Shown piece by piece: positions 13,934 through 26,526 of a DNA stretch of 64,000 bases (position 1 is its first letter; each line of letters starts with the position of its first letter). This stretch comes from an uncultured Propionivibrio sp. (GTDB lineage: Bacteria; Pseudomonadota; Gammaproteobacteria; Burkholderiales; Rhodocyclaceae). Position numbers and translations under genes: made by a program. The DNA is taken from NCBI RefSeq assembly GCF_963666255.1, contig NZ_OY762656.1:434001-498000 (forward strand), written 5' to 3'. Below the pieces are notes generated by a model that worked only from the letters and a program-made list of their open reading frames with translations, searched no databases and was not told where the DNA came from.

Positions 13934-14010
<77 letters not shown>

Positions 14011-24202: not shown

Positions 24203-25678
24203 TCATTCAAAACGGGTATCGAGGCCGTTCTCGGCCAGTTCCGCCGCCCGCAGGACGGCACGCGCCTTGTTCTGAGTTTCCTGCCACTCCGAAGCCGGAT
24301 CGGAATCGGCAACGATGCCGGCACCGGCCTGGACATGCAGCTTGCCATCCTTGACGAGCGCCGTGCGGATGGCGATCGCCAGATCCATGTCGCCATGAAA
24401 GCCGAGATACCCGACCGCGCCGGCGTAGATACCGCGCTTCACGGGTTCAAGCGCATCGATGATCTCCATCGCCCGCACCTTGGGCGCCCCCGAGACTGTT
24501 CCGGCGGGGAACGTCGCCTTGAGCACGTCAAGCGCATTGAGCCCCGGCTGCAGCTTGCCCTCGACGTTGGAGACGATGTGCATGACATGAGAGTAGCGCT
24601 CGATCGTCATGTTCTCGGTCAGTTTGACGCTGCCGGTCTTCGCCACGCGTCCGGCATCGTTGCGCCCGAGATCGAGCAACTGGACGTGTTCGGCGCGCTC
24701 CTTCTCATCAGCGAGCAACTCCGCCGCCAGCGCATTGTCCTCCTCGAACGAAGCTCCGCGACGACGCGTGCCGGCGATCGGCCGCACCGTCACCGTATCG
24801 CCCTCGAGCCGCACGAGAATCTCCGGCGACGCGCCGACGACATAAAAATCCTCGAAGTCGAAGTAGAACATGTAGGGCGACGGATTGAGCGAGCGCAAGG
24901 AACGGTAGAGCGCCAGCGGGCTCGCCGCAAAAGGCTTGCTCATGCGCTGGGAGAGGACGACTTGCATGATGTCGCCTTCGGTGATGTGATGCTTGGCCTT
25001 GACGACGGCCTGCTTGAACAGCGCCTCGCCGAAAGACGACACCGCCGGCGCCGACGGCCGGGTCGTTTCAGCCGGAATCTCGGCCGGTTCGCGCAAACGC
25101 GCGAGCAGCGCCTTGAGCCGCGCCTGCGCCTTCTGATAGGCTCCGGGCACGCCCGGCTCGGCATAGACAACCAGCGTCAACTTGCCCGACAGATTATCGA
25201 CGACGGCGATTTCTTCAGACAGCAGCAGCACGATATCGGGCGTGCCCAGTTCGTCTTCCTTGGTCGTGCGCGTCAGCTTTTTCTCGATGTAGCGGACCGT
25301 GTCATAGCCGAAACAACCGACCAGTCCGCCGCAATAACGCGGCAATCCGGCCGACGGCGCGGCACGGAAGCGCTTCATGTAGCTTTCAATGAAATCGAGC
25401 GGATTGGTATCGTCCTCGCGTTCGGCGATACGGTTGCCGGTCAGCACCAGCACCTGGTGCCCCTGAACGACGATGCGCGTCGGGCTGGCGAGGCCGATGA
25501 TCGAATAACGGCCAAAACGCTCGCCGCCCTGCACCGATTCGAGCAGATAGGTGTACGGGCCATTGGCCAGCTTGAGGTAAATCGACAGCGGCGTGTCGAG
25601 GTCGGCGAAGGTTTCGAGGGTGACAGGAATCCGGTTGTAGCCTTCAGCGGCCAACCGGTTGAAAACCGATTCAGACAT
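24203..25678 (-). CDS. trpE: Anthranilate synthase component I
   Basis: The 491-residue chorismate-using enzyme has the N-terminal regulatory segment with the LLES tryptophan-feedback motif ([11 protein letters not shown], about residue 50) and the C-terminal chorismate domain (about 225-480: [69 protein letters not shown]). The ATG at 25678 has a GGAG site eight bases upstream; an ATG at 25690 overlaps that site. A Trp-rich leader peptide and attenuator lie between gph and this gene, so transcription is probably controlled by charged tRNA-Trp. Confidence 0.97.
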
Positions 25679-25698
25679 GGGGTACTCCATTCACGGGT

Positions 25699-25768
25699 GC
25701 AACAAGAGAACGACCGGCACGCGTCAACGCGCCAGTACGGGACAGCGGTCTACTGGCAGGGTCGCCAG
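25699..25768 (-). promoter_or_regulatory. Trp attenuator: competing hairpins upstream of trpE
   Basis: On the minus strand four segments can pair alternatively. Segment 1 CTGGC (25768-25764), which includes the third leader Trp codon, pairs with segment 2 GCCAG (25757-25753). Segment 2 extended to GCCAGTA (25757-25751) is exactly complementary to segment 3 TACTGGC (25737-25731). Segment 3 as ACTGGCGCG (25736-25728) pairs with segment 4 CGTGCCGGT (25721-25713) with two G-U pairs, and is followed by the U-rich CGTTCTCTTGTTG. Stalling at Trp codons would free segment 2 to form the 2:3 antiterminator. The pairings are seen; the mechanism is inferred from classical trp attenuators. Confidence 0.8.
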
Positions 25769-25824
25769 GGCCACGCCTCCGCCCAAAGTGCGGGCTCCAG
25801 ATGCAGTTGGTGAACGGAATTCAT
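25750..25824 (-). CDS. trpL: Trp operon leader peptide
   Basis: This 24-codon frame starts with ATG nine bases after the gph stop codon and ends with TAG inside the attenuator. It encodes Trp at positions 14, 18 and 20 (W-AEA-W-P-W), three of only 24 residues. There is no obvious Shine-Dalgarno sequence, so it may be translated by reinitiation after gph. It lies 72 bases before the trpE start, and its last Trp codon lies in segment 1 of the attenuator. It is too short for standard gene finders. The peptide itself is expected to have no function beyond ribosome stalling. Confidence 0.8.
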   Translation of the reverse strand: MNSVHQLHLEPALWAEAWPWRPCQ

Positions 25825-25833
25825 TCGGTTAAA

Positions 25834-26526
25834 TCAATGTGTCACAGGGGTTTTGACCATATCCGCGATATCACGGATGGATTCGACTATAGCATCACAG
25901 TCAAGTTCCTGTACATCCTTGTCCTCGTTGTACCCATACGGCAGAAGGAAGACAGGGCAACCGGCCGCACGCGCCGCAAGCGCGTCGTTGATCGAGTCGC
26001 CGACGAACAGCGTATCGCCCGGCACCACCCCGAGACGGCCGCAGGCCCAGACAAGCGGCATCGGATCGGGTTTGACGCGGGGCAGCAGATCGCCGCCGAC
26101 GAGCACGTCGAAATACGAGGCCAGCCCGGTCTGTTCGAGCAGGGGCGCGATGAAGGCATCGCCCTTGTTGGTCACCACGCCCATCGGCACGCCCATCGCG
26201 CGGAACGCCGCCAGACCTTCGATGACGCCTGGATAGGCGCGGGCATTGCGGCCGTTCTCGCGAGCATAGTGACGCCGGAAACTTGCCACCGCTTCGGGCG
26301 GCGGCGGCGTTGGATCCTCGGCTACGCTCAGCGAGTTGGCGAGCACGCGCTTGACCAGGTTGGCAATACCACGGCCGACATACGCCCGGATCGATTCCAG
26401 CGGCAAGGGCGGACGCCCGAGGTCAGCGAGCATCGCGCAGGCGGCGGCGTGCAGATCGGGAATCGTGTCGATCAGTGTGCCGTCGAGATCGAACAGCACC
26501 GCGCGGACAGTCAGCACCGGACTCAT
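25834..26526 (-). CDS. gph: Phosphoglycolate phosphatase
   Basis: The 230-residue HAD-superfamily phosphatase has motif [11 protein letters not shown] with the nucleophile Asp, motif II VVTNKG, and motif [12 protein letters not shown] and [16 protein letters not shown]. Gph dephosphorylates 2-phosphoglycolate released by oxidative DNA damage or oxygenase activity. Its start overlaps the rpe stop (ATGA), and trpE follows: rpe-gph-trpE is a conserved arrangement in proteobacteria. Substrate is inferred from family and context. Confidence 0.92.

Follow-up and report, generated by a model that had tools for sequence, protein, structure and literature searches.

The window, as we call the whole stretch of 64,000 nucleotides from an uncultured Propionivibrio sp. 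analysed here, carries on its minus strand rpe, gph, a leader open reading frame (ORF), trpE, trpG, trpD, and trpC in this order, the gene names being assigned via NCBIfam. All features of the leader region described below lie on this strand. The phosphoglycolate phosphatase gene gph (25834–26526) ends with a TGA stop codon at 25836–25834, and after nine bases the leader ORF (MNSVHQLHLEPALWAEAWPWRPCQ, 25750–25824) starts with an ATG at 25824 and ends with a TAG at 25750. The product of the leader ORF is 24 codons in length, with Trp at codons 14 (25783–25785), 18 (25771–25773), and 20 (25765–25767); for the latter two, TGGCCCTGGCG is present in 19 of the 20 genus loci described below, the remaining one being cut. 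The trpE gene (24203–25678), encoding anthranilate synthase component I, was taken to start at 25678. Its Shine-Dalgarno sequence GGAG (25685–25688) is overlapped by an in-frame ATG at 25690, upstream of the chosen start. The original prediction had placed a 24-codon Trp-rich ORF nine bases past the gph stop, and its coordinates and its three Trp positions coincide with ours. Elsewhere in the window, a tRNA gene at 13937–14010 (minus strand) was the sole Rfam match at the gathering score.

A Trp-rich frame was defined as an ORF of 8–50 codons with at least two Trp codons among the last 12 and with its stop 15–260 nt before trpE. By this rule, the frame is present in 67 members of a first set of 81 loci (80 trpE loci, mostly from Rhodocyclales-type genomes, and the window) and in 82 of 144 additional genomes from the order (146 genomes with trpE minus the window's own genome and G050, in which trpE lies at a contig edge; G034 and G148 each have a second copy, which was excluded). 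The reverse-complement control gave 3 of 81 and 3 of 144, and shuffles predict 3.6 and 9.3, respectively. A comparison of the gph–trpE gaps of Rhodocyclales for Trp codons had been proposed as a check of the original prediction, and the recurrence of such frames far above the reverse-strand controls supports its view of a leader peptide set to control trpE. The frame was absent by the rule from 14 of the 81 loci and 62 of the 144 order loci; L091, with only 57 nt upstream, was scored as a miss. At least one genome in 32 of 48 families possesses the frame, some of these probably by chance. Among 20 further trpE loci of the window's own genus, 9 of which are identical in sequence to loci of the first set, the frame was found in 18, all with the peptide motif AEAWPWR; it was missed in L241, which is truncated ahead of the trpE start, and in L244, which codes for the motif but has no stop within the permitted distance. 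Taken over the leaders as a whole, the median position of the first Trp codon is codon 12. Across families, the peptide outside the Trp codons varies, and the Trp codons, for which the search rule selects, are the shared part.

Outside the order, 29 trpE loci from 44 other genomes were inspected, giving a candidate frame in 6 and one on the reverse strand. These Trp-rich frames before trpE (L284, L285, L286, L289, L300, and L302, among 29 loci of other gamma-proteobacteria) are in some cases WRWR-like. A leader pattern search of 249 genomes was discarded: it matched 194 of them, many at multiple places, and a reversed control pattern matched as well. The plasmid records searched gave 9 matches. 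In three Accumulibacter loci (L008, L022, and L069), the leader is lost and gph overlaps trpE by 4 bases (gap -4), while four others (L010, L013, L014, and L015) have the promoter-like site described below and no Trp-rich frame by the rule. In the Zoogloea-type loci L071, L072, L079, and L080, a conserved MTRK/MTQK frame replaces the Trp-rich leader before trpE; as translated by eye, its only Trp lies close to the end (EEFPAVRIP...RSW). As regards codon usage, 89 of the 521 Arg codons are CGA when the leaders are pooled, with duplicates and E. coli among them, versus 43 of 2818 in trpE of 80 loci, and TGGCGATGGCG is repeated in the leaders of many families. This usage may reflect RNA pairing or decoding speed.

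A point that the original prediction had missed is a promoter-like site inside the 3' end of gph. In the window, it consists of TGTACA and TATAGT separated by 18 bases, with TGC before the -10 element (extended -10; 25886–25915), and RNA would start near 25879, within the gph end. Reading of the sequences revealed GATGCTATAGT or TGGACA-18-TAGTAT repeatedly inside the gph end, and a promoter-like -10 was counted in 78 of the 81 loci with a list of hexamers compiled after inspecting the sequences. Of these 78, 49 have a TGGACA-like -35 at a spacing of exactly 18, and 29 have TG-N before TATAGT like the window. The site was absent from three of the 81 loci: L008 and L022, which have lost the leader, and L061, in which no gph was found. 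L069, which has also lost the leader, retains the -10. Six loci yielded no gph by tblastn, and five of them retain the promoter-like site. The site imposes codons that are rare in trpE of the 80 loci (CTA, 37 of 4007 Leu codons; ATA, 9 of 1924 Ile codons). The maintenance of such codons argues for selection on the DNA at the gph end and hence for a promoter.

In contrast to trpE, the leaders are nearly devoid of Shine-Dalgarno sequences. These analyses, like those of the helix P0 and of the terminator rule below, used leaders of 10–40 codons with a stop 30–140 nt before trpE, a set that may include a few chance frames and from which E. coli is excluded in the counts of 157 leaders and 147 loci. 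An energy of -4 kcal/mol or lower with the anti-Shine-Dalgarno sequence was obtained for 4 of 157 leaders versus 125 of 157 trpE starts. The mean for the leader starts was -0.72 kcal/mol, compared to -4.5 for E. coli trpL, and the window gave +0.6 kcal/mol, in agreement with the earlier remark that its leader lacks a clear Shine-Dalgarno sequence. Leader initiation is therefore probably slow, and the leaders may be poorly translated. In many relatives, the gph stop and the leader start overlap as ATGA; read-through transcripts could allow ribosomes to reinitiate after gph, but this need not be required.

The feature with the strongest comparative support is one that the original prediction did not contain, namely, a long helix between the leader start and the trpE ribosome-binding site, designated here as P0. 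Its 5' strand (25802–25820) comprises AUUCCGUUCAC (25820–25810) and UGCA (25805–25802) within leader codons 2–8, and its 3' strand (25684–25701) comprises UGCA (25701–25698) and GUGAAUGGAGU (25694–25684), which contains the GGAG. The minimum-energy fold of the window joins leader codons 2–5 to the trpE ribosome-binding site, and the probability that the trpE Shine-Dalgarno sequence pairs with the leader start is 0.88 in the window versus 0.006 in the E. coli trp leader. The letters of P0 differ among relatives: CUCCACAA with UUGUGGAG in L238 and L039, AAAUGAC with GUCAUUU in most of the Dechloromonas set, and CGCAAAAAC with GUUUUUGCG in L031.

The complementarity proved specific to both partner and position. 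Swapping the partners among leaders gave less stable helices in every group of the order: -18.6 ± 0.6 versus -23.0 for the native pairs in 30 EAWPWR leaders (0 of 3000), -16.1 ± 0.4 versus -18.9 in 37 Dechloromonas/Azonexus-type leaders (0 of 3000), -15.2 ± 0.47 versus -22.3 in 62 leaders drawn from 25 other families (0 of 3000), -16.2 ± 0.81 versus -24.2 with one locus per family (n = 25; 0 of 5000), and -19.8 ± 0.61 versus -22.3 in the own genus (n = 18; 0 of 2000). On the same sequences, no signal was detected between the Trp-codon part and the ribosome-binding site (1634, 2614, and 555 of 3000) or between the start region and the hairpin gap (1573 and 733 of 3000). Shared ancestry cannot easily account for the P0 signal, because these controls are flat and the signal holds with one locus per family. 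The swap test outside the order is small (n = 6; 22 of 3000) and was given no weight; some of the six loci show strong pairing of the start region. When the 50-nt segment was slid along the order set, shifts of +20 and +30 nt gave 0 of 2000, and those of -20, -40, -60, -100, and +45 nt gave 3, 105, 47, 1559, and 1605 of 2000, respectively; in the genus, the values at -100, -60, -40, +30, and +45 nt were 241, 327, 922, 291, and 662 of 2000. The signal is thus located at the leader start and the first codons, with slight upstream traces in the order set.

In folding ensembles computed for the entire leader, the trpE Shine-Dalgarno sequence was paired with the start region at a probability above 0.5 in 116 of 147 loci, compared to 25 of 147 after the start region had been shuffled once, and the mean pairing probability was 0.66 in the native and 0.23 in the shuffled sequences. 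The probability was 0.5 or less in the other 31 loci, and P0 is weak in some, such as L193 and L211. In the window alone, shuffling the start region gave a helix as stable as P0 in 125 of 2000 cases; of 5000 random 50-mers taken from the window, 2009 bind the ribosome-binding site equally well, but only 37 form a contiguous helix of at least 11 pairs. P0 of the window by itself is not exceptional, and our claim is a comparative one across groups. Ten genus leaders of 25 codons, in which 16 pairs were counted, say little on P0, because the pairs are mostly kept with little variation and one two-sided change (L074); L039 is largely unpaired in the register used for this count. The genus leaders and the Dechloromonas set were each aligned with MAFFT and the alignments judged by eye; that of the genus places the hairpins of some rows wrongly, and no pair counts were drawn from either. 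In L093, P0 consists of an almost perfect inverted repeat (about 24 pairs, -52 kcal/mol), which may be repeat-derived. The comparison across groups predicts that the trpE start site is sequestered by the leader RNA, the property by which a translational attenuator is recognized.

The original prediction had instead interpreted the region by the 1:2, 2:3, and 3:4 pairings of classical transcription attenuation, in which a stalled ribosome would favor 2:3 and thereby block 3:4; by our coordinates, RNA synthesis would otherwise stop near 25705. The segments indeed exist in the right order. Segment 2, GCCAGTA (25757–25751), is perfectly complementary to segment 3, TACTGGC (25737–25731), its alternative partner, and CTGGC over the Trp20 codon can pair with GCCAG. 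Segment 3 also enters a 3:4 hairpin (25713–25736) followed by CGTTCTCTTG, a candidate weak terminator; this hairpin and a moderately U-rich tail were described before, although the stem has 10 pairs (25736–25713) rather than nine. Hairpins of the 3:4 type with altered stems recur within the genus. The 2:3 antiterminator received weak support from partner swapping in 19 genus-type sequences (native -10.75 versus swapped -9.66 ± 0.45 kcal/mol, permutation 0.006), with energies of -9 or lower in 11 of them but only -5.7 to -8.0 kcal/mol in the other 8. These sequences were located by TGGCCCTGGCG, and that motif is therefore invariant among them, whereas the count of 19 in 20 genus loci given above is independent; L244 was included here and is absent from the other genus tests (n = 18), and L241 was dropped. 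In nine single sequences, none of the 1:2 and 2:3 duplexes fell below 0.05 against their own shuffles. The 201-nt leader stretch folds unremarkably (z = -1.37; 20 of 200 shuffles equally good), and 9 terminator-like sites were found on both strands of 4.5 kb, where shuffles give 3.1. What speaks against a terminator as the shared mechanism is its distribution. A hairpin of -7 or lower followed by at least 5 T in 8 bases, with 2 in the first 4, was found in 4 of 18 genus-type sequences (the window, L227, L002, and L003) and in 15 of 147 distinct leader loci, compared to 7–19 in ten rounds of gap shuffling, and is thus not conserved, whereas the E. coli trp leader passes the same rule. In several families, moreover, only about 45–56 nt separate the leader stop from trpE, and the U-rich tail of the window partly doubles as the 3' strand of P0. 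We consider the classical mechanism unlikely as an account of the whole system, and an additional terminator possible in the closest kin of the window.

Two other explanations deserve consideration. P0 might serve plain translational coupling, making trpE dependent on translation of the leader, or on translation running from gph into the leader, with no sensing of Trp; both the closure of the trpE site by P0 and the many leaders overlapping the gph stop as ATGA would fit such an arrangement. It would, however, leave unexplained why Trp codons are common to leaders whose peptides otherwise vary across families, and why the reverse-strand control is without them, and we regard it as quite improbable. 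The C-rich and G-poor gaps noticed by eye in some families with short gaps would suit Rho-dependent attenuation, in which the translated leader shields a C-rich stretch before trpE, but P0 complementarity is not predicted by this mechanism, which appears the most improbable of all.

We therefore consider it likely that the leader is a Trp-sensing leader-peptide attenuator and that its conserved, functional part acts as a latch on trpE translation, and the best reading is an order-wide translational attenuator. RNA would begin at the conserved promoter-like site within the gph end, and ribosomes would initiate on the leader ORF unaided by a Shine-Dalgarno sequence. With Trp-tRNA plentiful, they would finish the leader and depart, and the freed first leader codons would pair with the just transcribed trpE ribosome-binding site, forming P0 and shutting off the leader start as well as trpE. 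With Trp-tRNA in short supply, a ribosome would stall at codon 14, 18, or 20, as read from the positions of the Trp codons, and a second one would queue on the start region; together they would cover the 5' strand of P0, and trpE would remain open. A ribosome stalled at Trp14 alone would leave the basal 11 pairs uncovered, so the model needs the second ribosome. Judging from the size of the ribosome, one stalled at the first Trp codon would leave just enough room for another on the start codon. Premature transcription stop might act as a second layer in the window and its closest kin, by means of the 1:2, 2:3, and 3:4 pairings and the weak U-rich tail. Searches for TrpR or TRAP genes gave no match in the own genome (98.33% complete), and the operon may therefore rely mainly on the leader for sensing Trp. 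We lean, by a narrower measure, towards the joint reading that this is an unrecognized attenuator class spanning the order: a Shine-Dalgarno-poor Trp leader in which the starts of the leader and trpE would form one hairpin and exclude each other unless ribosomes starved for Trp keep the leader open, with P0 apparently changing its letters between families but persisting as a pairing.

The trp attenuator is a textbook case of RNA control. The leader shares with E. coli trpL a short ORF with neighboring Trp codons before trpE, alternative hairpins, and the expected activation of trpE upon starvation. In the E. coli leader, however, the terminator is clear and the trpE Shine-Dalgarno sequence hardly pairs with the leader start, whereas here that pairing is the conserved feature and the leader has no good Shine-Dalgarno sequence. 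In the translational attenuators of erm and cat genes, a stalled leader ribosome likewise frees a sequestered downstream start; stalling there depends on a drug, whereas here it would be caused by uncharged tRNA-Trp, and sequestration is by the start of the leader itself. The trp leader family of Rfam (Trp_leader, RF00513) shares the gene and the cue, but a covariance-model search of the leader gave no trp-leader match at the gathering score and no match to any family even at an E-value of 10, and by this test it is not a member. Among the matches listed in our literature search, no title or abstract concerned a betaproteobacterial trp leader; Lopatovskaya 2010 and Vitreschak 2004 may mention such leaders. 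A survey that used four Rfam motifs suggests that the known amino-acid attenuators may have arisen in gamma-proteobacteria (PMC3766115). The nearest published design found is the LEU element of Actinobacteria, for which a run of Leu codons is described as pairing with the leuA Shine-Dalgarno sequence and a pseudoknot is proposed (PMC1262725). Both systems place codons for the regulated amino acid in a leader ORF and pair the leader RNA with the Shine-Dalgarno sequence of the first gene, but here the leader start region pairs and the Trp codons are apical, and the pathway and phylum differ.

A translational design would explain why terminator-based screens and Rfam missed these leaders. The proposed P0 latch is a clear design that can be tested by breaking and restoring P0, and about 25 families of natural variants are available for studying how such a switch evolves. 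A large group of related bacteria appears to solve the control of Trp synthesis at the level of translation, using a leader without a good Shine-Dalgarno sequence.
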